Of a DNA stretch of 64,000 nucleotides, positions 1 through 54,012 are shown in pieces. The stretch lies in the NCBI RefSeq assembly GCF_041346945.1, contig NZ_CP166850.1:7362501-7426500 (forward strand). Direction: 5' to 3'. The stretch's first letter is position 1. Every line of letters starts with the position of its first letter. The position numbers were made by a program, and so were the translations under genes. The notes beneath the pieces were generated by a model that worked only from the letters and a program-made list of their open reading frames with translations, was not told the DNA's origin and did no database searches. This DNA comes from Amycolatopsis sp. cg9. Its GTDB lineage: Bacteria; Actinomycetota; Actinomycetes; Mycobacteriales; Pseudonocardiaceae.

Positions 1-674
1 ACGCCGTGCGCGTCGAAGTCCGGGAGCAGCGACTCCATCAGGGAGTAGACGGCTTCGTAGAGGGCGACGTCCACGACTTCGCCGGGCCGGGTGCCCGGCT
101 GACGTTCGCGGCGCAGCAACCCCATGAGCGCGCCGATCACCGCGTAGAGGCCCGCGACGGAGTCGGCGAGGCTGACGCCGGCACGGGTGGGTGCCTGGCC
201 GGGGTAGCCGGTGAGCGCGCGCAGGCCGCCGATCGCCTCCGCGACGCCGCCGAAGCCGGGCCGGTCGCGGTACGGGCCGGTCTGGCCGTAGCCGGAGACA
301 CGGACGACGACCAGCCGCGGGTTGAGCGCGCGCAGCTCGTCGGGGCCCAGGCCCCAGCGCTCCAGCGTGCCGGGCCGGAAGTTCTCGAGCAGGACGTCGC
401 CGCGGCCGGCCAGCGCGCGGACGATGTCCTGGCCTTCGGGGCGGCGGAGGTCGACGGTCACCGAGCGCTTGTTGCGGCCGAGGGTGCGGAAGAGCAGCGA
501 GGTGTCGCCGCCGTGCAGCCGCCAGCGCCGGAGCTCGTCGCCGGTGCCGGGGCGCTCGACCTTGACGACGTCCGCCCCGAAGTCGGCCAGCAGGCGCCCG
601 GCGGTCGGCGCGGCGATGAAGTTGCCCAGTTCGACCACCCGGAGGCCCGCCAGGGGCCCGGATTGTTCACTCAT
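1..674 (-). CDS. CaiB/BaiF family CoA-transferase (C-terminus beyond window)
   Basis: Class III CoA-transferase, which moves CoA between an acyl-CoA donor and a carboxylic acid in the cytoplasm. Reading the minus strand from the ATG at 674 gives MSEQSGPLAGLRVVELG, then APTAGRLLADFGADVVKVE, GRNKRSVTVDLR and VLLENFRPGTLERWGLG, the usual N-terminal landmarks of the CaiB/BaiF family. The frame stays open to base 1, so about 224 residues are visible of a family that normally has about 400. The conserved catalytic Asp region (around GVSLADSVAGLYA) is present. It is divergent from an IclR regulator and near an MFS carrier, which suggests a small catabolic unit for an organic acid. The substrate cannot be told from the sequence. 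Confidence 0.9.
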   Translation of the reverse strand, partial: MSEQSGPLAGLRVVELGNFIAAPTAGRLLADFGADVVKVERPGTGDELRRWRLHGGDTSLLFRTLGRNKRSVTVDLRRPEGQDIVRALAGRGDVLLENFRPGTLERWGLGPDELRALNPRLVVVRVSGYGQTGPYRDRPGFGGVAEAIGGLRALTGYPGQAPTRAGVSLADSVAGLYAVIGALMGLLRRERQPGTRPGEVVDVALYEAVYSLMESLLPDFDAHG

Positions 675-6258: not shown

Positions 6259-6914
6259 CGATCTCGGTGTTCCTGCTCGACGACCACGAGCTGGTCCGGA
6301 CCGGGCTGAAGACCGTCTTCGAGGCCGAAGCGGACATCGAAGTGGTCGGCGAGGCGGCGACGGCGGCCGAGGCCCTGGTGCGGATCCCGCAGGCGCGCCC
6401 GGACGTCGCGATCCTCGACGTCCGGCTGCCGGACGGGCAGGGCGTCGAGGTGTGCCGCGAGATCCGGTCCACTGTGGAGCCGCCGCCCGCGTGCCTGATG
6501 CTGACGTCCTATTCGGACGACGACGCGCTGTTCGGCGCGATCATGGCGGGCGCGGCGGGCTACATGCTGAAGCAGGTCTCCGGCCGGTCCCTGATCGACG
6601 CCGTCCGCACGGTCGCCGGCGGCGGCTCGCTGCTGGACGCCACGCTCACCGCGTCGGTGATGAACAAGCTGCGCGGCGAGAACGTGGCCACCGCGGACCC
6701 GCGCTACGAGCAGCTGAGTCCCCAGGAACGCCGGGTGCTCGACCTGGTCGCGGAGGGCCTGACCAACCGCCAGATCGCCGAGCGGCTGTTCCTGGCGGAG
6801 AAGACGGTGAAGAACTACGTGTCGTCGGTGCTGCACAAGCTCGGCGTCGAGCGGCGCACGTCGGCGGCGGTCTACATGTCCGAGCGGCGCGCCGGTCCGG
6901 GACGATCGGGCTGA
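6255..6914 (+). CDS. LuxR/NarL family response regulator (DevR-like)
   Basis: A 219-residue DNA-binding regulator paired with the kinase above by a 4-nt overlap. The receiver domain (about residues 3-120) has the acidic pair in LLDDHE, phospho-acceptor Asp55 in DVAILDVRLPDG and the conserved Lys in GYMLKQ. A LuxR-type HTH (about 150-210) shows LSPQERRVLDLVAEGLTNRQ and AEKTVKNYVSSVLHKLG, very close to DevR/DosR. I looked for DosR-type boxes near the PPOX, kinase and downstream genes and found none, so the regulon is undefined. Confidence 0.92.
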   Translation: MTISVFLLDDHELVRTGLKTVFEAEADIEVVGEAATAAEALVRIPQARPDVAILDVRLPDGQGVEVCREIRSTVEPPPACLMLTSYSDDDALFGAIMAGAAGYMLKQVSGRSLIDAVRTVAGGGSLLDATLTASVMNKLRGENVATADPRYEQLSPQERRVLDLVAEGLTNRQIAERLFLAEKTVKNYVSSVLHKLGVERRTSAAVYMSERRAGPGRSG

Positions 6915-7023
6915 ATCCGGGACCGATCGGACGAAACCGGTGGGGCGTTCGACGTATCCAGCGGCCGATGCGGTACACCTGTCGGGGGACGCACAGATCG
7001 GTGTGCGCGGTGGAGGGGACGGC

Positions 7024-7461
7024 ATGTCGGGGTTGTCGAGCGGGGACTACGTCGCGCAGCAGATCCGGGCACTCGCGCAAGCGGTGCGCCGGGAAGGAGC
7101 GGGAGGGGTCGGCACGCGCAGCTTCCAGCTCGCGGAGCACCTGGCCGCGGAGGGTGGCGTCCACCGCGGCGACATCATGACCGCGACGGCGACCCTCCTG
7201 GCCATGACGGCCTGGTGCGACGGCGAAGTCGAGGCGGCGCGCCGGTTCGCGGAGCTGGCCGGCGAGAACGACGAAGACTCCCGGGAACTGGTCACCCACC
7301 TGCTGCGGCTGGAGGCCGGCGCGGACCAGGGGTGGCTGCCGCAGGAGCAGGTGGAGGCGCTGCTCGAATACGCGCGCAAGGCCCGCCGCGGGGATCTGGT
7401 GCAGCGGGTGCGGGCGATCGCGGGCGCTTCGCGCGGCGGACGGCACCGGCGGGCGGACTAG
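7024..7461 (+). CDS. Uncharacterised 145-residue helical protein
   Basis: I do not recognise the family. The protein is predicted soluble and helical, with no signal peptide and no cysteine-rich motif; the only notable segments are HRGDIMTATATLLAMTAW and an acidic stretch GENDEDSRELVTHLLRLEAG. The ATG at 7024 has a strong GGAGGGGACGGC site. Codon usage is normal for the window. It follows the response regulator by 110 bp on the same strand, so it may be a target or co-transcribed. Confidence 0.65.
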   Translation: MSGLSSGDYVAQQIRALAQAVRREGAGGVGTRSFQLAEHLAAEGGVHRGDIMTATATLLAMTAWCDGEVEAARRFAELAGENDEDSRELVTHLLRLEAGADQGWLPQEQVEALLEYARKARRGDLVQRVRAIAGASRGGRHRRAD

Positions 7462-7498
7462 GCCCGGCGGATCGTGCGGCCGCCAGGGAAGCCGCCCG

Positions 7499-8107
7499 TC
7501 AGCCGCTGACCCCGGTCAGCGCGAAGAACTCCTGCCGGGTCTTGGGTTCCTCGCGCAGCAGGCCGTGCAGCGACGAGGTGACCGTCAGCGCGCCGGTCGC
7601 CCGGACCCCGCGCAGCGACATGCACAGGTGCTCGGCTTCGATCACCACACCGACGCCCTTCGGCGAGAGGTGTTCCTGCAGCCAGTCCGCGACCTGCTTG
7701 GTCAGCCGCTCCTGCACCTGCAGGTCGCGCGCGAACAGCTCGACGACGCGGGCGAGCTTCGACAGGCCGAGGATCCGGTCGCCGGGCAGGTAACCGACGT
7801 GCGCGACGCCGCGGAAGGGCAGCATGTGGTGCTCGCACAGCGACTGCACCGGGATGCTCTTGGCCAGCACGAGTTCGTCGTAGCCCTCGTCGTTGGGGAA
7901 CGTCGTCAGCTGGAAGTCGCGCGGCCGCAGCATTTCCGCGTAGGCGTGGGCGACCCGGCGTGGCGTGTCGCCCAGGTGCACCGACGTCGGGTCCTTGCCG
8001 AGCGCCCGCAGCAGATCGGCGACCGCGCGCTCCGCCGCGTGCAGGTCGACGGCGTCGCGGTCGTGGACGACACCGAGGTGCCGCAGCGGAACGGGTTCGA
8101 CGCTCAC
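7499..8107 (-). CDS. folE: GTP cyclohydrolase I
   Basis: Converts GTP to 7,8-dihydroneopterin triphosphate, the first step of folate/pterin synthesis. The 202-residue protein carries the zinc and active-site motifs CEHHMLPF and AEHLCMSLRGV, plus HVGYLPGDRILGLSKLARVVE and QVQERLTKQVA, all diagnostic of type IA FolE. The start is the GTG at 8107 because GAAGGAGG lies 7 nt before it; an ATG at 8131 would read through that site. In actinomycetes folE usually sits beside ftsH and folP. Here it stands alone and divergent from a SufR-like regulator, so it may be a second, conditionally used copy. Confidence 0.93.
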   Translation of the reverse strand: MSVEPVPLRHLGVVHDRDAVDLHAAERAVADLLRALGKDPTSVHLGDTPRRVAHAYAEMLRPRDFQLTTFPNDEGYDELVLAKSIPVQSLCEHHMLPFRGVAHVGYLPGDRILGLSKLARVVELFARDLQVQERLTKQVADWLQEHLSPKGVGVVIEAEHLCMSLRGVRATGALTVTSSLHGLLREEPKTRQEFFALTGVSG

Positions 8108-8119
8108 GGGCGTGCCTCC

Positions 8120-8188
8120 TTCTAAAATCAATTCGAGCCGACGTTAGAAGCTCGTCCCGCTTTTCGTCAAGAGTTTTGTGTTTTAGAA
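8120..8188. promoter_or_regulatory. Inverted TTCTAAAA/TTTTAGAA pair in the folE-regulator spacer
   Basis: TTCTAAAA at 8120-8127 and TTTTAGAA at 8181-8188 form an inverted pair 61 bp apart, with a third partial copy TTAGAA at 8145-8150. This AT-rich block is out of character in such GC-rich DNA. The first element overlaps the folE ribosome site and the second lies 7 bp before the ATG of the divergent regulator. They are good candidate operators for that regulator, controlling both genes. Confidence 0.5.
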
Positions 8189-8195
8189 TGCGGCG

Positions 8196-8852
8196 ATGCA
8201 CGAACCCCAGGCCGGTGCGCTGGCCGCGGTCGCGGCACTCGACGAGCCGACCCGGCGCCGGCTGTACGAGTACGTCGTCCGCCAGCCGGTACCGGTGAGC
8301 CGCGACGACGTCGCCACCGCCCTCAGCGTGCCTCGCGCGACCGTCGCGTTCCACCTCGACCGCCTGGTGGACGCGCGGCTGCTGGCGGTCGGCCACGAAC
8401 GCCGCACCGGCCGCACCGGCCCGGGCGCCGGCCGGCCCGCGAAGCTGTACCGGCGGTCCGACCGGCAGGTGAGCGTCTCCCTGCCGGAACGCCAGTACGA
8501 ACTGGCCGGTCAGCTGCTCGCGACGGCGGTGGAGGAAGCCGGCGAAACCGGCGGCTCGGCCCGCGAAATCCTGACCCGGCGGGCCCGCGAACGGGGCGCG
8601 GACCTCGCCCGCGGCGCCCCGGACATCCTGGGCACGCTGGAAGAACACGGCTTCGAGCCCCGCGCCGACGGCGACCGGGTCCTGCTGGGCAACTGCCCGT
8701 TCCATCAGCTCGCCCGGACCCACCGGCGGCTGGTCTGCGAGATGAACCTCGCCCTGGTCGAAGGCCTGCTCGCCGGGGTGGGCGACCGCCGCCTGCGCGC
8801 ACGGCCCGAACCGGGGCCGGGGCTCTGCTGCGTGCGCCTCGAGCCGGCCTAG
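8196..8852 (+). CDS. SufR-like winged-helix regulator with C-terminal cysteines
   Basis: A 218-residue regulator of the DeoR/ArsR-like COG2345 type. The N-terminal winged HTH (about residues 14-75) reads LDEPTRRRLYEYVVRQ and VPRATVAFHLDRLVDARLL. The C-terminal domain contains Cys in GNCPFHQLA, Cys 14 residues later in LVCEMN, and CC 30 residues after that in GPGLCCVRL. This spacing recalls the Fe-S ligands of SufR, so iron-sulfur or redox sensing is plausible but unproven. No ribosome site precedes the ATG at 8196, so it may be leaderless. The stop TAG overlaps that of the convergent TauE gene. Confidence 0.8.
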   Translation: MHEPQAGALAAVAALDEPTRRRLYEYVVRQPVPVSRDDVATALSVPRATVAFHLDRLVDARLLAVGHERRTGRTGPGAGRPAKLYRRSDRQVSVSLPERQYELAGQLLATAVEEAGETGGSAREILTRRARERGADLARGAPDILGTLEEHGFEPRADGDRVLLGNCPFHQLARTHRRLVCEMNLALVEGLLAGVGDRRLRARPEPGPGLCCVRLEPA

Positions 8853-11154: not shown

Positions 11155-11203
11155 CTTGAATGACTCATTCAGGACCGCCGAAGACCTGAATGAGTCATTC
11201 AAG
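11155..11203 (+). repeat. Nested palindromic intergenic repeat / terminator after LacI 1
   Basis: Two 19-bp arms (11155-11173 and 11185-11203) are perfect inverted copies across an 11-nt loop. Each arm contains its own 15-bp palindrome: TGAATGACTCATTCA in the first, TGAATGAGTCATTCA in the second. It starts 5 bp after the LacI stop and can act as a terminator. Related elements occur at 23401-23451 and 48877-48929. Confidence 0.7.
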
Positions 11204-43711: not shown

Positions 43712-44404
43712 ATGCACAAAGCCGTGCGTTCCCTTGTGGTTTCCTTGACTGTGGCCGCTTCGGTGGCCACTTCGGCCGGTGTCGCTTCCGCGGCGACGTG
43801 GTCGTCTTCCGACCAATGGGCGACCTGGTCCAATGGCGGGTACACGATCCGCAACGACGTCTGGGGCAGTGGGGCCGGCCCGCAGACCATCTGGGCGAAT
43901 TCGTATTCGAACTGGGGTGTCTGGTCGAACCAGCCGAACACCGGCGGCGTGAAGTCGTACCCGCATTCGGCGAAGAACGTCGGCAAGAAGCTCAGCGCGC
44001 TGGGAAAGGTTTCGAGCAGCTTCGACGTCAACCGCCCGGGCAGCGGCGCTTATGAGACCGCGTACGACATCTGGGCGGACAACAACGCCTACGAAACCAT
44101 GCTGTGGATGAACAAGCAGGGCGCGGTGGGTCCGCTCGGCAGCAAGCAGGCGACGGCGACCGTCGGCGGGCACACCTGGGACGTCTACCGGGGATCGAAC
44201 GGGTCGAACGCGGTGTTCTCGTTCGTCCGGACGTCGAACACGAACGCGGGCACGGTCGACGTGCTGGCGGTACTGAACTGGATCCGCGCTCGCGGCTGGT
44301 TCGGCGACGTGACGCTCGGCGAAGTCCAGTTCGGCTTCGAGATCACCTCGTCCGCCGGGGGACTGGACTTCGCCGCGAACAGCTACTCCGTCACCGCGTC
44401 CTGA
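43712..44404 (+). CDS. Secreted GH12 endoglucanase/xyloglucanase
   Basis: 230 residues with a signal peptide (about 1-27, VASA) and one GH12 beta-jelly-roll domain. Nucleophile Glu128 in YETMLWMNKQGAVGPLG and acid/base Glu210 in VQFGFEITSS are both present; YTIRNDVWGSGAGPQTIW is the family N-terminal sheet. It should cut beta-1,4-glucan or xyloglucan outside the cell. There is no binding module or linker. The ATG at 43712 follows ATGGAGGACCTCCCTC, itself a small GGAGG-CCTCC hairpin that could modulate translation. It ends 3 bp from the convergent DUF1996 gene. Confidence 0.92.
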   Translation: MHKAVRSLVVSLTVAASVATSAGVASAATWSSSDQWATWSNGGYTIRNDVWGSGAGPQTIWANSYSNWGVWSNQPNTGGVKSYPHSAKNVGKKLSALGKVSSSFDVNRPGSGAYETAYDIWADNNAYETMLWMNKQGAVGPLGSKQATATVGGHTWDVYRGSNGSNAVFSFVRTSNTNAGTVDVLAVLNWIRARGWFGDVTLGEVQFGFEITSSAGGLDFAANSYSVTAS

Positions 44405-44407
44405 GCG

Positions 44408-45868
44408 CTACTGCGAACAGCGCTTGCCCGTGTTGATGCAGTTGACCACCTGGTTCATCAGGCGCTGGCCCATGACGTTCGCGAAGTCGTCGTGGTCCGA
44501 CCGCGGGTTGTGGCTCTCCTGCGGGAAGGCGTCCACTTTGTACTGACCCTTCACCTGGATGTCGTGCGGGATGTCGTAGACCAGCTTGATCACCAGCTGC
44601 GGCACGTTCTTGAAGCCCTGCGGGCACTTGCCCTGCTGGTCGGCGAACACGATGTGCGTGCGGTGGTTGGCGCTGTCGATGTTCTTGCCGTCCCAGCAGT
44701 TCGGGAACGCGTGGATCCGCTCCACCCGGCTGTTCTGCGGGCAGATCGGGTAGTGGTCGGTCAGCCGGTCTTCGAACCCGGTGCACGTCCAGCTGGGCCG
44801 GGCGTTGGCCGGGCCGTTGGTGCTCTGCTTGGCGTCGCCGTAGAGGATGCGGAGGAACTGCGGCATCGCGACGACCTTCTTCGCGCCGCCGCTGGTGAAG
44901 GTGATCGTCGCCGACCGGACGCGCTGGATCTCGCCGTCGTTGCCCGCCAGTTCGTTCTGGTCGTTGACGCCCGGCAGTTCGGTCGCCTGGCCGCCGCCGT
45001 TCTGGCCACCGCTGTTCTGGCCGCCGTTGTCGAGCCCGCCCTGGCCGTTCTGCTTGAGCGCGCACGCCGCGAGCCCGCCCAGGTCCGTCGGCTTCGCCGC
45101 CCGGCGGCCGATCGCGATGGCGATCCGCTCGATGGTCGCCGTCCGCTTGTCCTTGAGCGGGCCGACGACGGCGTTCTGGACGTCCTGCGGCGTCTTGAGG
45201 TCACCGTTCGCGATCCGCTGGTTCGCCTCGTCGATCTGCTTGTCGAGCAGGTCGAGGTTGCGGTTCACCTCGTCCATCGCCTGGTCGGGGACGTCGGGGA
45301 GCTTGCTGGCGACGTCCGGGCAGTCGACCTGGGTGCTCGCCTTGTCCTTCGCGCTGCCGGCGCGGTCGGGCTGCGTGGCGGGCGGGTTCGCTTCGTCCTC
45401 GCCGGTGTCGATCCGGACGACGGGCCAGAAGTACGCGGACTTGTCGCCGTTCTTGCAGGTGGTCCCGGCCTTCGAGAGGCTCTTGTTGTTCGAATCGGCG
45501 TTGGTCGACAGGTTGCCGACGTAGTCGTGGAGGTGCTGCGCGCCGTTGCGGATACCGGGCTGCGCGATGAAGTTGTCGGGGTTGAAGTGCTGGTTTTCGT
45601 TGCGGCCGCAGTCGACGGTGAACGTGCCGCGCGCGCCTTGCTTCTGCAACGCCTTGTTCACGTTAACACCGCTGGGGACCTTCGCGATGTCGAGGAAGAA
45701 CGACGGGTCGGCCTCGTCGGCGCTGGCCTCGCCGGTGCGCCCGGCCGTGGTCGCGACGACGATGCCGCCGACGGCGAGCGCGAGTGCGAGACCGCCGGTC
45801 GCGATCTTCGTGCGGCGGGTGATGCGATGCCTGCCCGTGGCGGGAGTGCGGGTGGTTTTCCGGGCCAT
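44408..45868 (-). CDS. Secreted DUF1996-domain protein
   Basis: 486 residues. The N-terminal signal/anchor (about 18-45) is followed by the DUF1996 domain in two parts: CGRNENQHFNPDNFIAQPG and GAQHLHDYVGN (about 88-120), and YPICPQNSRVERIHAFPNCWDG, HRTHIVF, PHDIQVKGQYKV (about 375-460). Conserved His, Asp and paired Cys suggest a metal- or sugar-related secreted fold, but the biochemical role of DUF1996 is unknown to me. Between the parts lies an insertion (about 185-310) with a charged helical segment and a Gly/Gln-rich stretch (NGGQNSGGQNGGGQ). The ATG at 45868 follows GAGGTGACC. Confidence 0.8.
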   Translation of the reverse strand: MARKTTRTPATGRHRITRRTKIATGGLALALAVGGIVVATTAGRTGEASADEADPSFFLDIAKVPSGVNVNKALQKQGARGTFTVDCGRNENQHFNPDNFIAQPGIRNGAQHLHDYVGNLSTNADSNNKSLSKAGTTCKNGDKSAYFWPVVRIDTGEDEANPPATQPDRAGSAKDKASTQVDCPDVASKLPDVPDQAMDEVNRNLDLLDKQIDEANQRIANGDLKTPQDVQNAVVGPLKDKRTATIERIAIAIGRRAAKPTDLGGLAACALKQNGQGGLDNGGQNSGGQNGGGQATELPGVNDQNELAGNDGEIQRVRSATITFTSGGAKKVVAMPQFLRILYGDAKQSTNGPANARPSWTCTGFEDRLTDHYPICPQNSRVERIHAFPNCWDGKNIDSANHRTHIVFADQQGKCPQGFKNVPQLVIKLVYDIPHDIQVKGQYKVDAFPQESHNPRSDHDDFANVMGQRLMNQVVNCINTGKRCSQ

Positions 45869-46073
45869 GGTCACCTCGTTCGGTTTTCCGGGCACGACGG
45901 AGAAAGCTGCGTGCCCGGTGGGGAGACGCGCGGAACCCGGGGGAGTGCCGCCGCGTCCGGGGCACTGGTTCCGGCACTGGCAGAAACGGCTCCGGGCGAG
46001 AGCCGGTTCAAGCCCGGATTTGCGCGTTATCGTTTCGTTATTTATGGAAGGTGAACAAAGTTCACGTCTAGCC

Positions 46074-46089
46074 GTGTGATCGCTAACAT
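46074..46089. promoter_or_regulatory. Degenerate LacI-family operator before the HTH-less LacI protein
   Basis: GTGTGATCGCTAACAT keeps one perfect half-site (GCTAACA) and a weaker second half. It lies 6 bp before the ATG of the HTH-less protein, so a repressor bound here would cover the transcript start. The other LacI paralogues are the obvious candidates to bind it. Confidence 0.6.
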
Positions 46090-46095
46090 CGGCCC

Positions 46096-46902
46096 ATGCC
46101 CGAGGACGACGGCCCCCTGCTCGCTCCACGGGGAAGAGGCACGCTCGGCGTGATCGCGACCGGCTCCACCGCGTCCGGGCCGGTCCTGCACGGTCTCCGC
46201 GCCGCGGCCCGCGAGCAGGGGTACGCGCTGAACGTCTTCAGCGTCCCCGGCCGCGGCGGCGCGGCGGTGACGGCCGCGATCGCCGGCCTGAGCCTGCAAG
46301 GAGTGGTGGGCATCGTCGTGCTCGACGCGCGGTTCGTCCCGGACCCGGCCCCGCTGCCGCTCGTCCCGGCCGCCTCGACCGACCAGTACGCGGGCGCGCG
46401 CCGGGCCACCGAGCACCTCCTGGACCTCGGCCACCTGACGGTCTGGCACCTCGGCGGCCCCGAAGACGGCCCGGCCGGCCGCGACCGCGAGCGCGGCTGG
46501 CGCGAAACCCTGGAGCGCCACGGCGCCGAGGTCCCCCCGGTGGTCCGCGGCGACTGGTCCGCGAGATCCGGCTACCGCGCGGGCCAGTCCCTGGCGGCCG
46601 AACCGGGCGTGCGCGCGGTGTTCTCGGCCAACGACCACATGGCACTGGGCCTGCTGGCGGCCTTCACCGAAGCGGGCATGCGAGTCCCGCGCGACGCCCA
46701 CGTGGTCGGCTTCGACGACGTCCCCGAGGCGGCGTACTTCGCGCCACCGTTGACGACGGTCCGCCAGGACTTCGTGGCGGCGGGCCGCCAGACACTGGCG
46801 GCACTGACCGCCCGCATCGACGGCGTGGCGGCTCCGGTGCGGGGGAGCGTGGAGGGGGAGCTGGTGGTCCGGGAGAGCAGCCGCTGCCTGCGGGCGGTCT
46901 AG
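46096..46902 (+). CDS. LacI-like sensor protein lacking the DNA-binding domain
   Basis: 268 residues. From [21 protein letters not shown] to [11 protein letters not shown] it aligns with the sensor domains of the LacI paralogues at 10106 and 26346: [64 protein letters not shown] and [22 protein letters not shown]. The HTH and hinge (about 75 residues) are missing: an in-frame TAA within the operator lies 9 bp before the ATG, and no HTH remnant is readable upstream. No ribosome site is seen, so it may be leaderless. It could dimerise with the full repressors or buffer their ligand. A decayed paralogue is the alternative, though the frame is intact. Confidence 0.8.
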
Positions 46903-48848
46903 AGCGTGAGCCGGTCGCCCAGGTCGCGGATGTGGTCGGCGTTCCCGCAGTCCAGGTCCAGCTGACGGCGGCGTTCCGCCACGAACGCCCGCCCCAGCCC
47001 GGTCCGGTCCGAAGTGGACATCGTGCGGCGCAAGTCGTTCAGCAACCCGCGTTCCTCGCCGCGGACGTGCGCGTCCACGACGTTCTCCAAGTGCGGCAAC
47101 GCCTTCTCGAAGTCCTCGGTCTCCAGCACCGCCAGCAGGTCGTCGGCGAACGGCGTGCCCGGCGAACCCGGGCGGACGATCCGCTCGGTCGCCGTCGCGT
47201 GGGCGACCAGCAGGGCCGCCAGCTCCGCGAGCAGGGCGGGGTGGTCCGCGTCGGTGTTGCGGAGGTCGCGCAGCAGCTGCTCGAAGCGGCGGTGGTCGGC
47301 CAGCAGCACCTCGACCAGGTCGGACCCGGGCGCGGCGGCGGCCGGGCCGGGGCGCATCCAGCCGAACGTCAGCTCCACCGCCTGGCGCCAGTGGCCGTAC
47401 TCGGACGCGCGGCGGGCCGGGTCCATCGCCGGCAGCCACTGGCCGGCCCGGTGCCAGTTGCGGCGCAGCCCCTCCAGGTCCGGCCAGTACCCCACGGACA
47501 GGCCGGCCGCGTAGGCCGCCCCGAGGGACACCGTCTCCGCCACCATGGGGCGGACCACCGGGACGTCGAGGACGTCGGCGATGAACTGCATCAGCAGGTT
47601 GTCAGCGGTCATCCCGCCGTCGACCTTCAACGTCTTCAGGGCGAGGCCCGAGTCGGCGTTCATCGCGTCGACGACCTCGCGGGTCTGCCAGCCGGTCGCC
47701 TCCAGCACCGCCCGGGCCAGGTGGCCCTTCGTGATGTAGGACGTCAGGCCGGCGATCACCCCGCGGGCTTCGCTGTGCCAGTGCGGGGCGAACAGCCCGG
47801 AGAACGCCGGGACGATGTAGCAGCCGCCGTTGTCCTCGACCGTCCTGGCCAGCGTCTCGATCTCCGGCGCACTGCCGATCAGCTCCAGCCCGTCGCGGAA
47901 CCACTGCACCAGCGACCCGGTGACGGCGATCGAGCCTTCGAGCGCGTACACCGCGGGCTCGTCGCCGATCTTGAAGCCGACCGTGGTGAGCATGCCGTGG
48001 GTGGACAGCACCGGCGTCGGGCCGGTGTTGAGCAGCAGGAAGCTGCCGGTGCCGTAGGTGCACTTGGCCTCGCCGGGTGCGAAGCACGTCTGGCCGAACA
48101 GCGCGGCCTGCTGGTCGCCCAGCGCCGCCGCGATCCGGATGCCGGGAACCACGCGCGAAGTGGTGCCGTAGACCTCGGTGGAGGAGCGGATCTCCGGCAG
48201 CATCGCGCGTGGGACGTCGAAGAAGTCGAGGAGCTCGTCGTCCCAGCCGAGCGTGCGCAGGTTCATCAGCATGGTGCGCGAGGCGTTGGTGACGTCGGTG
48301 ACGTGCACGCCGCCCTCGGCGCCGCCGGTGAGGTTCCAGATCAGCCAGCTCTCGATGGTGCCGAACAGCACGTCGCCGCGCTCGGCGCGCTCGCGCAGGC
48401 CGGGGGTGCGTTCGAGCAGCCAGCGGATGCGCGGCGCGGAGAAGTACGTCGCCAGCGGCAGCCCGCACAGCTGCCGCACGCGCTCGGCCCCCGGCTCGCG
48501 CGCGAGCTGTTCGAGCATCGCGTCGGTGCGGGTGTCCTGCCAGACGATGGCCCGCCCGACCGGGTTGCCGGTCCGCCGGTCCCACAGCACGGTGGTCTCG
48601 CGCTGGTTGGCGATCCCGAGCCCGACGACCTGCTCGGCACCCACCCCGGCGTCGGCCAGGGCCTGGGGGACGATCCGCGAGAGGTTCCGCCAGATCTCGA
48701 CGGCGTCGTGCTCGACCCACCCGGGCCGCGGGAAGTGCTGCTGGTGCTCCCGCTGCACGACCGACACCAGCCGGCCGCGGGCGTCGAACAGGATGCACCG
48801 GGTGGAGGTGGTGCCCTGGTCGATGGACATCACGTACCGCTGGACCAC
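46899..48848 (-). CDS. glpK: Glycerol kinase fused to a C-terminal hemerythrin-like domain
   Basis: 649 residues against about 505 for a normal glycerol kinase. Residues 1 to about 505 are a full FGGY glycerol kinase ([73 protein letters not shown]). After a short Pro/Ala linker, residues about 511-649 look like an HHE hemerythrin domain: [12 protein letters not shown] (His519), [10 protein letters not shown] (His550, Glu555), [12 protein letters not shown] (His594, Glu598/599). It is one unbroken frame with a GGAGGTGAGCAC site before the GTG. It is a second glycerol kinase beside the glpFKD operon. A di-iron or oxygen/redox-sensing role for the tail is inference. The TAG stop overlaps that of the convergent HTH-less LacI gene. 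Confidence 0.88.
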
Positions 48849-48876: not shown

Positions 48877-48929
48877 GTCGCGAATGACTCATTCGCGACC
48901 TCCGGCGTCCCGAATGAGTCATTCGCGAC
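48877..48929 (-). repeat. Nested palindromic intergenic repeat between gylR and the fused glpK
   Basis: The first arm, 48877-48899, is a perfect 23-bp palindrome centred on AATGACTCATT; the second, 48907-48929, is a near-perfect one centred on AATGAGTCATT. The two cores are inverted copies of each other. CTCCGGCGTC (48900-48909) and GACGCCGGAG (48927-48936) form a further stem around the second arm. It is the same core as the element at 11155. It lies between two minus-strand genes, so it may terminate gylR transcription. Confidence 0.7.
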
Positions 48930-48969: not shown

Positions 48970-49722
48970 TCACCATCGGGACGCGCCCAGGTCCCGCGAC
49001 ACCGCGCGGGCCGCGTCGCGGACGTGGCCCAGCAGCCGCGGGCTCGGGCTGCCGTCCGGCTCGCAGATCCGCTCCACCGCGCCGGACACCCCGATCGCGC
49101 CGACGACGATGCCGCCGTGGCCTCGGATCGGGGCCGCGATCCCGGCTTCGCCGGCGATCATCTCGCCGTTCTCGGCCGCCCAGCCCGCCTCCCGTACCTT
49201 CGCACACGCGCGCTTGATCGCCGTCTGGGTGACCAGCGTGCGGCGCGTGTACGGCTCCGGGTCCGCCTTCAGCGTCGTGTCGTAGGCCAGCAGGACCTTC
49301 CCCAGCGCGGTCGCGTGCAGCGGCAGCAGCGTGCCGACGTCGAGGCTCTGGAGGCTGTCGTCGGGGCGGAACACGTGGTGCACCACCAGCACGCGGCCCT
49401 CCAGCGGCGCGCCGATCCGGACGGCCTCGCCGCTGCGGGCCGCAAGCGCGTCCGCCCAGTTGATCGCCCGGGAGCGCAGCTCGTTGACGTCCAGGTAGCT
49501 CGTGCCCAGGTGCAGCAGCGCCGCACCGAGCTGGTACTTGCCCGAATCCCGGTCCTGCTCGACGAACCCGACGCCCTGCAGCGTGCGCAGGATCCCGTGC
49601 GCCGTGCCCTTGGCCAGCTCCAGCGATTCCGCGATCTCGCCGACGCCGAGACGGCCCGAACCGCGCGCCAGCAACCGCAGGATCGCGGCGGCGCGCTCGA
49701 TGGACTGGATCGGACCGGGCAC
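48970..49722 (-). CDS. gylR: IclR family glycerol operon regulator (GylR-like)
   Basis: 250 residues. Winged HTH at about 5-65 ([40 protein letters not shown]) and IclR effector domain at about 80-245 ([46 protein letters not shown]). It matches streptomycete GylR, which represses glycerol genes, and it sits between two glycerol kinase loci, divergent from glpF. The start is the GTG at 49722. Two palindromic sites in the divergent spacer are its likely operators, controlling glpFKD and itself. Confidence 0.88.
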
Positions 49723-49750
49723 GGCGCGACCCTAACCCGACCGGCCCTGA

Positions 49751-49795
49751 TTCGACAATGTCGAACATCCACATCGGCCGTTCGACAATGCCGAC
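49751..49795. promoter_or_regulatory. Paired GylR operators in the gylR-glpF spacer
   Basis: TTCGACAATGTCGAA (49751-49765) is a 7-1-7 palindrome. A second copy, TTCGACAATGCCGAC (49781-49795), shares its first ten bases and lies exactly 30 bp downstream, about three helical turns, so two dimers could bind the same face of the DNA. They begin 29 bp before the gylR GTG. Confidence 0.7.
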
Positions 49796-49850
49796 CGGCG
49801 TCCGTTGACCGGCCGGAAATGCGAACTTAACTTCACTCCACTGTGCCTGC

Positions 49851-49888: not shown

Positions 49889-49940
49889 TGGACCCCCAAC
49901 GGCGTCGGGGAGGGGACAAGGTCCTTTGTGGAGGAAAGCA

Positions 49941-50762
49941 ATGGTGCGAAACCTCAAGGCCCGTGGGCTCGGCGGCGAGATGGCCGCCGAGTTCGTGGGC
50001 ACGATGATCCTCATCCTGTTCGGGTGCGGGGTGGTGGCGCAGGTCGCCGCCGCGGGCATCGGGGACCACGACAGCATCGCCTGGGCCTGGGGGCTCGGCG
50101 TCACGCTCGGTGTGTACGTCGCTTCGCGGATCAGCGGCGCGCACCTGAACCCGGCCGTGACCATCGCCCTCGCCGTGTTCAAGGGCTTCGAGTGGCGCAA
50201 GGTCGCCCCCTACGCCCTCGCGCAGACCGCCGGCGCGTTCCTCGCCGCGCTGCTCGTGCGCTGGAACTACACCGAGGTGCTCAACGCCAAGGACCCCGGC
50301 CTGACGATCAAGACCCAGGGCGTGTTCTCCACCCTCCCGGGTAACGGAACGCTGCCCGTGGGTGACTGGGGCGCCTTCCGCGACCAGATCATCGGCACCG
50401 CGATCCTCCTGATCGTCCTGTTCGCCATCACCGACCTCCGCAACACCTCGCCGGGCGCGAACCTGGCCCCGGTGGTCGTCGGCTTCCTCGTCGTCGCCAT
50501 CGGCATGGCCTGGGGCACGAACGCCGGCTACGCGATCAACCCCGCCCGCGACTTCGGCCCGCGCCTGGCCTCCTGGCTGACCGGCTACGACACGGCGTGG
50601 TCCGACCAGTACGGCTTCCCCTACTGGTGGATCCCGATCGTCGGCCCGATCATCGGCGCCCTCGTCGGCGGCGCGATCTACAAGTACCTGATCGAGCGGT
50701 TCCTGCCCGCCGGGGACCCGCTGGACGCCATACCCGCCAAGGACCTCGAGCCCGCCAACTGA
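49941..50762 (+). CDS. glpF: Glycerol uptake facilitator (aquaglyceroporin)
   Basis: 273-residue MIP-family channel with six helices that lets glycerol cross the membrane by diffusion. Both pore motifs are present: HLNPAVTIAL (about residue 68) and AINPARDFGPRLAS with the Asp after NPAR typical of glycerol channels. The ATG at 49941 follows TGGAGGAAAGCA; an upstream in-frame ATG (49926) would span that site. It is the first gene of glpF-glpK-glpD, under the GylR sites. Confidence 0.95.
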   Translation: MVRNLKARGLGGEMAAEFVGTMILILFGCGVVAQVAAAGIGDHDSIAWAWGLGVTLGVYVASRISGAHLNPAVTIALAVFKGFEWRKVAPYALAQTAGAFLAALLVRWNYTEVLNAKDPGLTIKTQGVFSTLPGNGTLPVGDWGAFRDQIIGTAILLIVLFAITDLRNTSPGANLAPVVVGFLVVAIGMAWGTNAGYAINPARDFGPRLASWLTGYDTAWSDQYGFPYWWIPIVGPIIGALVGGAIYKYLIERFLPAGDPLDAIPAKDLEPAN

Positions 50763-50777
50763 GTGAGGAGTACCCCG

Positions 50778-52295
50778 ATGCCTGACTACGTCGGCGCCGT
50801 TGACCAGGGCACCACCAGCACCCGCTTCATGATCTTCGACCACGGCGGCAACGAAATCGCCCGCCACCAGCTCGAGCACGAGCAGATCCTGCCCAAGCCG
50901 GGCTGGGTCGAGCACGACGCCACCGAGATCTGGGAACGCACCCGCTCGGTCATCGCCACCGCGCTCAACAAGGCCGACCTGACCGCCGGGGACCTCGCCG
51001 CGCTGGGCATCACCAACCAGCGCGAGACCACCGTCGTGTGGAACCGCCGCACCGGCCGCCCGTACGGCAACGCGATCGTCTGGCAGGACACCCGCACCGA
51101 CCGCATCGCCTCGGCGCTGGAGCGCGCGGGCAAGGGCGACGTCATCCGCCGCAAGGCCGGCCTGCCGCCCGCGACGTACTTCTCCGGCGGCAAGCTGCAG
51201 TGGATCCTCGAAAACGTCGACGGCGTGCGCGAGGACGCCGAGAAGGGCGACGCCCTCTTCGGCACCACCGACTCGTGGCTCATCTGGAACCTGACCGGCG
51301 GCCCGGACGGCGGCGTGCACGTCACCGACCCGACCAACGCGTCGCGCACCATGCTGATGGACCTCGAAACCCTGGACTGGGACGACGAGCTGCTCTCGTT
51401 CTTCAACGTCCCGCGCGCGATGCTGCCGGCGATCCGGCCGTCGTCGAACCCGGGCCTCTTCGGCACCACCCGCGCCGACGGCCCGCTCGGCGGCGAGGTC
51501 GCCATCACCGGCGTCCTCGGCGACCAGCAGGCGGCGACCGTCGGCCAGGTCTGCTTCCGGCCCGGCGAGGCCAAGAACACCTACGGCACCGGCAACTTCC
51601 TGCTCCTCAACACCGGCCAGGAACTGGTCCGCTCGAAGCACGGCCTGCTGACGACGCTGTGCTACCAGTTCGGCGACGAAAAGCCGGTCTACGCGCTGGA
51701 AGGCTCGATCGCCGTCACCGGTTCCGCGGTGCAGTGGCTGCGCGACCAGCTGGGCATCATCAGCGGCGCGTCCCAGAGCGAAAGCCTGGCCCGCCAGGTC
51801 GAGGACAACGGGGGCGTCTACTTCGTCCCGGCGTTCTCCGGCCTGTTCGCGCCGTACTGGCGGTCCGACGCGCGCGGCGCGATCGTCGGCCTCACCCGGG
51901 CCACGACCAACGCTCATCTCGCGCGGGCCACCCTGGAAGCGATCTGCTACCAGACCCGCGACGTCGTCGAGGCCATGCAGAACGACTCCGGCGTCACGCT
52001 CGACGTGCTCCGGGTCGACGGCGGCGTCACCGCCAACGAGCTGTGCATGCAGCTGCAGGCGGACATCCTCGGCGTGCCGGTGTCGAAGCCGGTCGTCGCC
52101 GAGACCACCGCGCTCGGTGCCGCCTACGCGGCCGGGCTGGCCGTCGGCTTCTGGCGGTCGACCGACGAGCTCGAACAGAACTGGAACGAAGACAAGCGCT
52201 GGACGCCGTCGTGGAGCGACGAGCAGCGCGCCGAGGGCTACGCGGGCTGGCAGAAAGCCGTCGGCCGCACGCTCGACTGGGTCGATGTGGAGTGA
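50778..52295 (+). CDS. glpK: Glycerol kinase
   Basis: 505-residue canonical enzyme trapping glycerol as glycerol-3-phosphate. [79 protein letters not shown] and [17 protein letters not shown] are all present. The ATG at 50778 follows GTGAGGAGTACCCCG, 15 bp after glpF. Unlike the paralogue at 46899 it has no C-terminal extension, so this is the housekeeping copy of the operon. Confidence 0.96.
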
Positions 52296-52302
52296 GGATC
52301 CG

Positions 52303-54012
52303 ATGAAGAGGAGTTCGGTGGAAGCCGTGCCGCTGTCCCCGCTGTACCGGGCGGAGACGCTGAAGAAGCTGGCGCGCGGGGAGGTCGACGTGCTGGTCGT
52401 CGGCGGGGGAGTGACCGGGGCCGGCGTCGCGCTCGACGCCGCGTCCCGTGGGCTTTCGACCGCGCTGGTCGAGGCCCGTGACTTCGCCGCCGGCACGTCC
52501 AGCCGGTCGTCGAAGCTGATCCACGGTGGCCTGCGCTACCTCGAGCAGCTCGACTTCAAGCTGGTGCGCGAGGCGCTCAAGGAACGCGGGCTGCTGCTGC
52601 AGAAGCTGGCCCCGCACCTGGTGCGGCCGGTGAAGTTCCTGGTGCCGCTGCAGCACCGGGTGTGGGAGCGCGGTTACATCGGCGCCGGCGTCACGCTGTA
52701 CGACACGCTCGGCGGCGCCCGCGCGCTGCCGCGGCACCGGCACCTGTCCAAACGCGGCGCGTTCAAGGCCGCGCCCGGCCTGGCCGACGACGCGCTGATC
52801 GGCGCGATCCAGTACTACGACGCCCAGGTCGACGACGCCCGCCACACGATGACGATCGCGCGGACGGCGGCCGAGCAGGGCGCTTCGGTGCTGACGCGGG
52901 CCCGGGTGACATCGCTGCTGCGCGACGGCGAGCGCGTCGTGGGCGCCAAGGTCGTCGACCGCGAAAGCGGCGTCGAGTTCGAGATCCGGGCTCGTACGGT
53001 GGTCGCCGCGACGGGGGTGTGGAGCGACGACATGGCCGAGGCGGCCGGGATTCCCGCGCCGTTCACCGTCCGCGCGTCGAAGGGCATCCACCTGGTGGTG
53101 CCGCGGGAGAAGATCGACCTCGACACCGGGCTGATCCTGCGCACCGAGAAGAGCGTGCTCTTCGTGATCCCGTGGGGCCGGCACTGGATCGTCGGCACCA
53201 CCGACACCGAGTGGGACCTCGACCGCGAGCACCCGGCGGCCAGCCGCGCGGACGTCGACTACGTGCTGGAGCACCTCAACAAGGTGCTGCGCACGCCGGT
53301 GACCCACGACGACATCGAAGGCGTCTACGCGGGTCTCCGTCCGCTGCTCGCGGCGAAGGCGGCCGCGACGACGAAGCTGTCGCGGGAACACGCGGTGGCG
53401 CACCCGGTGCCGGGCCTGGTGATCGTGGCCGGCGGCAAGTACACGACGTACCGGGTGATGGCCGCGGACGCGGTCGACGTGGTGGTCGAGGACGTCGGCC
53501 GCCCGGCCCCGCCGTCGTGGACCGACCGGCTCCCGATCGTCGGCGCGGACGGCTACCACGAGCTGTGGGACGACCGGTTCGGCGTCGCTTCGCGGGCCGG
53601 CCTGACGGTGCCGCAGGTGGAGCACCTGCTGCAGCGCTACGGCACGCGGATCTGGAACCTGCTGGACCTGATCCGCGACGAGCCCGAGCTGGCCTCGCCG
53701 GTCCCGGGCGCGACGGAGTACCTCCGTGCGGAAGCGGTGTACGCGGCTTCGCACGAGGGCGCGCTGCACCTGGAGGACGTCCTGACCCGCCGCACGCGCA
53801 TCTCGATCGAGGAGCGCGACCGGGGTGTCACGGCGGCCCCCGAGGTCGCGGCGCTGATGGCCCCGGTGCTGGGCTGGGACGAGCACCGGACCGAGCGCGA
53901 GGTGGCGAACTACCTCGCGCGGGTCGAGGCGGAGCGCTCGGCCCAGGAGGCCCCGGACGACGAGGCGGCCAACGCCACCCGCCTCGCGGCTCCGGCCCTG
54001 CTGCCCGGCTGA
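52303..54012 (+). CDS. glpD: Glycerol-3-phosphate dehydrogenase (FAD-dependent, aerobic type)
   Basis: 569-residue flavoprotein that oxidises glycerol-3-phosphate to dihydroxyacetone phosphate and feeds electrons to quinone at the membrane. N-terminal FAD motif VLVVGGGVTGAGVALDAASRG and DFAAGTSSRSSKLIHGGLRYLE are diagnostic. VPREKIDLDTGLILRTEKSV, VGTTDTEWDLDREHP and YAGLRPLLA follow, and a C-terminal helical domain (about 395-540). The ATG at 52303 has GAGG 5 nt upstream; a GTG at 52318 is a possible alternative. Last gene of glpFKD, closed by a long hairpin. Confidence 0.95.
   Translation: MKRSSVEAVPLSPLYRAETLKKLARGEVDVLVVGGGVTGAGVALDAASRGLSTALVEARDFAAGTSSRSSKLIHGGLRYLEQLDFKLVREALKERGLLLQKLAPHLVRPVKFLVPLQHRVWERGYIGAGVTLYDTLGGARALPRHRHLSKRGAFKAAPGLADDALIGAIQYYDAQVDDARHTMTIARTAAEQGASVLTRARVTSLLRDGERVVGAKVVDRESGVEFEIRARTVVAATGVWSDDMAEAAGIPAPFTVRASKGIHLVVPREKIDLDTGLILRTEKSVLFVIPWGRHWIVGTTDTEWDLDREHPAASRADVDYVLEHLNKVLRTPVTHDDIEGVYAGLRPLLAAKAAATTKLSREHAVAHPVPGLVIVAGGKYTTYRVMAADAVDVVVEDVGRPAPPSWTDRLPIVGADGYHELWDDRFGVASRAGLTVPQVEHLLQRYGTRIWNLLDLIRDEPELASPVPGATEYLRAEAVYAASHEGALHLEDVLTRRTRISIEERDRGVTAAPEVAALMAPVLGWDEHRTEREVANYLARVEAERSAQEAPDDEAANATRLAAPALLPG

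Follow-up and report, generated by a model that had tools for sequence, protein, structure and literature searches.

The window analysed here, a 64,000-nucleotide stretch of the 10.6-Mb genome of the soil bacterium Amycolatopsis sp. cg9 (G000:C1:7362501-7426500), carries on its minus strand the gene glpK-HHE, whose product joins a glycerol kinase (GlpK) to a C-terminal domain of hemerythrin fold. Its frame runs without interruption through 649 codons, from a GTG start at 48848 down to 46899. An earlier sequence-only reading of the window had placed the gene correctly and as a single frame, without naming the strand; the plus-strand reading of the same interval falls in another frame and was rejected. 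The product has Pfam matches above the cut-offs to FGGY_N (residues 5-252), FGGY_C (261-450), and Hemerythrin (PF01814), and passes the GlpK equivalog TIGR01311 of NCBIfam (694.5 vs. 590.35 bits). It contains DQGTTS, R83-E84, W103, Y135, D245-Q246, and DGG410-412, which correspond to active-site residues of E. coli GlpK. All 12 active-site positions checked are invariant in each of the 63 fused genes described below, and the kinase part is predicted to be most likely active, with ordinary glycerol kinase chemistry. The features of the locus are listed in Table 1.

Table 1. glpK-HHE and the features surrounding it in the window
Feature	Position	Strand	Basis
glpK-HHE, glycerol kinase of 649 residues with a C-terminal hemerythrin-fold domain	46899..48848	-	frame, Pfam, NCBIfam, fused homologues
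Kinase part of glpK-HHE, residues about 1-498	47355..48848	-	NCBIfam match, active-site residues
Hemerythrin-derived domain of glpK-HHE, residues about 508-649	46902..47327	-	Pfam (504-558), structure models, fold matches
Helices of the domain, full-protein numbering	residues about 511-529, 536-558, 568-576 (short), 580-609, 612-631, 637-647		structure models
Dispersed palindrome, two copies between regulator and glpK-HHE	48881..48925	.	site search
IclR-family regulator, very likely GylR, directly upstream of glpK-HHE	48970..49722	-	family match, position, operators
GylR-operator-like site, exact match to abridged pattern	49750..49766	-	pattern search
GylR-operator-like site, exact match to abridged pattern	49780..49796	-	pattern search
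glpF, aquaporin-type glycerol facilitator (MIP), divergent from regulator	49926..50762	+	Pfam
Ordinary glpK of glpFKD	50763..52295	+	Pfam, NCBIfam
glpD-like gene; start picked from translation (listed open reading frame starts at 52117, within glpK)	52303..54012	+	name from translation

The hemerythrin profile PF01814, expected for this part of the protein by the sequence-only reading, scores 30.4 bits on the whole of glpK-HHE (E 6.1e-7) and 33.7 bits on the tail by itself, with a cut-off of 25.3. On the whole protein the match comprises residues 504-558 only, so that just the first two helices of the tail are covered, and these align with the latter half of the profile; this partial coverage is the first sign of an unusual domain. 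The structure model of the domain alone matches the hemerythrin four-helix fold, and the closest solved structure, both by fold and by sequence profile, is 6q09, a hemerythrin-like protein of Mycobacterium kansasii, found at 9.5e-7 in a profile search of PDB. The match of the de novo designed protein 9cte in PDB profile searching (7e-4) was put down to helical-bundle similarity, and the sole match of a single-sequence search of PDB, an NADH oxidase with E 0.15, is regarded as chance. The profile, the model, and the fold matches thus bear out a fusion of a kinase with a domain of hemerythrin fold, as the sequence-only reading had proposed. 6q09 shares with the fused domain a four-helix bundle and a fifth helix and, according to a passage of PMC8913304, binds two irons via four His, two Glu, and a Tyr, whereas the profile alignment finds in the fused domain neither the helix-2 Glu, nor the Tyr region, nor the helix-3 His.

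The phylogenetic spread, which the sequence-only reading had marked for checking, extends to 46 of the 80 genomes of the genus and to at least 63 genomes overall, and because of this recurrence the observation is not due to chance. In the remainder of the 80, the gene of G008 contains a stretch of N that interrupts it and was excluded from every count (L057 of G070 is likewise unused), G001 and G011 have an unfused orthologue of 82% identity, G032 an unfused relative of 64% identity, and 30 a single GlpK at the threshold used. A scan of 390 genomes of the family revealed at least 10 fused genes under a second genus label (g11) and at least 7 under a third (g22, Kibdelosporangium); these two counts and the total of 63 are lower bounds, and fused genes whose kinase has diverged much further might be missed. 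For seven of the 63 genes (L059, L060, L061, L062, L064, L068, and L073) the extrapolated first codon is no start, so that only approximate values are available for their 5' ends and for their spacing from the regulator. A protein search in which scores were taken on the tail gave 28 fused proteins, the named ones nearly all from Amycolatopsis; one, P0013, is labelled Streptomyces sp. WAC 05977, and its tail is 75% identical to that of the window, like those of the surrounding Amycolatopsis proteins, so the label may be wrong. In the nearest orthologues without the fusion, the protein stops at about 506-515 residues. In a tree of 72 kinase sequences, midpoint-rooted for display, the 63 fused ones group into a single clade (100/96), and six unfused orthologues, sampled out of many, lie outside it; this topology fits a single gain of the fusion. 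The combination of a glycerol kinase with a hemerythrin domain is new and belongs to one clade of Pseudonocardiaceae.

The metal ligands were compared between 85 distinct fused tails, drawn from the 63 genes and the 28 proteins (two of them partial, P0007 and P0009), and 24 standalone HHE proteins of Pseudonocardiaceae (P0039 and relatives), hand-picked among the best 120 of 824 matches. All 24 standalone relatives have an intact helix 3 and the full set, comprising the helix-1 His, the helix-2 His with a Glu four residues further on, two helix-3 His, and the helix-4 His and Glu; the His preceding the helix-4 His is also found in all 24, and an extra helix-3 His in 18. The fused tails retain the helix-1, helix-2, and helix-4 His (85/85 each) and the helix-4 Glu (84/85), while the helix-2 Glu is found in none of them, being replaced by Thr in 81, Ser in two, and Ala and Val in one each. 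The three helix-3 His positions are occupied in 0, 1, and 0 tails, and the His before the helix-4 His in none. In glpK-HHE the retained residues are H519, H550, H594, and E598, and the position of the helix-2 Glu (H550+4) holds T554. The sequence-only reading had located H519, H550, E555, H594, E598, and E599 correctly; E555, however, lies at H550+5, where seven tails have Ser and four Asp, and is by itself no evidence for a ligand because the standalone relatives also have Glu there. The pattern of di-iron HHE domains which that reading saw in these residues does not hold, with both missing elements present in 24/24 standalone relatives, and the tail does not satisfy the hemerythrin motif H-HxxxE-HxxxH-HxxxxD given in a passage of PMC9388753. 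Loss of the ligands in all close homologues, named in advance as counting against the proposal, is encountered in part: some ligands are lost everywhere, but the four mentioned above are kept almost everywhere. By alignment, roughly half of the residues that usually bind iron are gone from the tail, and therefore it is probably no ordinary oxygen sensor.

The donor family of the tail is likely the standalone proteins just described, to which the fused domain is about 38-48% identical. Among the fused genes, the single helix-3 His belongs to L012 (G004; 6343-8274, plus strand), the earliest branch, whose helix 3 is of full length; judged from its sequence, this tail is intermediate between the standalone and the degenerate ones. 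Helix 3 is shortest in the fused genes of Kibdelosporangium. Invariant positions number 21 of 125 in the fused tails, and many of the conserved ones are Arg or Leu rather than ligands. The genome of the window also encodes a standalone hemerythrin-domain protein (L007:1519-2061, plus strand) with a shortened helix 3, seemingly devoid of helix-3 His, which is resembled by P0128, a standalone HHE protein of A. lexingtonensis with helix 3 likewise shortened; neither is among the 24, and their inclusion would reduce the helix-3 figure.

An IclR-family gene lies directly upstream of glpK-HHE, in the same orientation, in 63 of the 63 fused loci, and the gap between the two does not exceed 20 base pairs (bp) in 48 of them. 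In the window the gap is 121 bp because a pair of dispersed palindromes lies there. The palindrome GAATGA(C/G)TCATTC has 162 exact sites in the genome, paired about 30 bp apart (in the window also at 11157-11201); two copies are found in each of four of the 15 loci with a gap above 20 bp, and in none of the 48 short-gap loci. A search with an abridged form of the GylR operator gave exactly two exact matches in the whole genome, both of them in the interval that separates the regulator from glpF. The regulator is very likely GylR, since such operator-like sites lie upstream of it in the window and in all 63 fused loci (two in 59, one in four). The ordinary glpK remains in a glpF-glpK-glpD set (about 49926-54012), as had been noted from the sequence, and a glpD homologue adjoins glpK in relatives as well. 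The GlpK of this set is 59% identical to glpK-HHE, and a third GlpK (G000:C1:3503985-3505484), adjoining an aquaporin gene, is 61% identical. On the other side, convergent with glpK-HHE and with stop codons overlapping by 4 bases, lies a gene (46096-46902, plus strand) for a LacI-like protein in which Pfam found the sugar-binding domain only and no helix-turn-helix. It is followed outwards by genes for a DUF1996 protein (44408-46129, minus strand) and a glycosyl hydrolase family 12 protein (43712-44404, plus strand), both named by Pfam, and these adjoin a sugar ATP-binding cassette (ABC) transporter set read from translations.

The arrangement is identical to that of the second Amycolatopsis glp cluster of PMC9732521, where more than half of the Amycolatopsis genomes are described as having a gylR homologue and an extra glpK upstream of glpFKD; in 46 of the 80 genomes analysed here this cluster carries the fusion. 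The cluster itself is thus already known, but its description in PMC9732521, as judged by term search, does not mention the hemerythrin tail. The sequence-only reading knew of no described GlpK-hemerythrin fusion, and none was found in the open-licence literature searched: the matches to 'glycerol kinase' together with 'hemerythrin' were judged unrelated from the listing and the beginnings of the abstracts. According to a passage of PMC3004843, in which it is not stated which GlpK is meant, GlpK of A. balhimycina is lower under phosphate limitation. The kinase part belongs to the same equivalog family as bacterial GlpK (FGGY, TIGR01311), with the active-site positions of the E. coli enzyme, and differs from it by about 140 additional C-terminal residues of hemerythrin fold. 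The parts of PMC9388753 consulted describe hemerythrin fusions to chemotaxis receptors, cyclic di-GMP enzymes, and P-type ATPases. The sensors DcrH, Bhr-DGC, Bhr-HD-GYP, and the P1B-5 ATPase likewise unite the hemerythrin fold and a functional domain in one chain; unlike them, the fused tail has two ligand positions gone.

The explanation towards which we lean is an active kinase with a regulatory module derived from hemerythrin, binding one metal at most or none, which would tune the activity of the kinase, its oligomer, or the binding of a partner. The C-terminal domain would descend from a standalone actinobacterial HHE protein with the hemerythrin fold kept, the bridging Glu of helix 2 and the stretch of helix 3 that carries the His having presumably been lost soon after the fusion, and the three His and one Glu retained would make up a half-site for a single metal at best. 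The following observations weigh against this explanation. The full-length structure model is poor, with a mean predicted local distance difference test score (pLDDT) of 56.5 and values under 50 for residues 235-477 and 479-507; the alignment behind it was probably too shallow for the kinase and included P0007, whose middle part is unalignable. A single fused gene, L064, has Val at position 598. Evolution is about three times faster in the domain than in the kinase, a difference that would also fit a weakly constrained tail. Finally, a shortened helix 3 occurs outside the fusion too, in the standalone L007 and P0128, and could have come with the donor, an origin disfavoured by L012.

Two sharper versions, overlapping with the tuning module and competing with each other, are each possible at a tentative level. 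One is a single-metal sensor: Fe, Zn, Mn, or Co would bind at a mononuclear site built from the three His and the Glu, and the kinase would be switched according to whether this site is occupied. In the 85 tails the four positions show little or no variation and the neighbouring former ligands vary freely, but a metal-free bundle can also keep polar core residues, and the Val of L064 speaks against such a site. The other, held with the same reserve, is a metal-free helical bundle serving oligomerisation, stability, or partner binding. Such a tail would accord with the loss of half of the ligands, with helix 3 being shorter still in Kibdelosporangium although purifying selection on the domain persists, and with Arg and Leu, rather than ligands, at many of the conserved positions, yet it leaves the three invariant His unexplained.

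That the tail is a functionless relic of a chance fusion, in the course of decay, is improbable. The ratio of nonsynonymous to synonymous substitution rates (dN/dS) is indeed higher in the domain than in the kinase in all three gene sets, with medians of 0.190 vs. 0.058 in the 46 genes, 0.376 vs. 0.119 in the 10 g11 genes, and 0.268 vs. 0.072 in the seven Kibdelosporangium genes, and the mean pairwise identity among the 46 is 82.5% for the domain and 96% for the kinase. Every value is, however, well below 1, and the frame is open throughout the domain in 63 of the 63 fused genes of three genera (G008 could not be scored); by these estimates the tail is under purifying selection, though evolving faster than the kinase. 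The persistence of the three His and the Glu also speaks against simple decay. Still less probable is a canonical sensor with a pair of bound irons through which glycerol phosphorylation would respond to oxygen, redox state, or iron, the role put forward by the sequence-only reading. The hemerythrin fold, the retained H519, H550, H594, and E598, and the published sensor fusions named above favour it, but the tail matches neither the published motif nor the standalone set, and a passage of PMC9388753 gives the ligands of characterised sensors as completely conserved except in the P1B-5 ATPase, with its variant set. Because the helix-2 Glu and the helix-3 His are lost, the domain would not be a canonical di-iron sensor of oxygen or redox, and coupling in that form is less likely than before.

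On the explanation favoured here, glpK-HHE would be co-transcribed, in one transcription unit, with the repressor of the glycerol regulon, putatively GylR, and as an active kinase it would make glycerol-3-phosphate, the published inducer of GylR, so that its output would set the derepression of glpFKD and of its own operon. A more specific and rather unlikely extension is a metal-gated inducer synthase, in which a one-metal hemerythrin lets metal or redox set the rate at which the inducer is made, gating the glycerol regulon.

The finding presents a central metabolic kinase with a hemerythrin-derived domain, fixed in one clade and with a graded loss of ligands. The series leading from the standalone proteins with the full set, through L012 with one helix-3 His, to the shortened helix of the others constitutes a natural series on the role of a hemerythrin past its di-iron stage; as read from the sequences, the evolutionary path of the tail is clear, and the role of the remodelled hemerythrin is the question which the series poses. 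As the operon of the repressor would also encode a kinase that makes the inducer, antibiotic-producing actinomycetes become a setting in which glycerol induction can be tested for a feed-forward loop.
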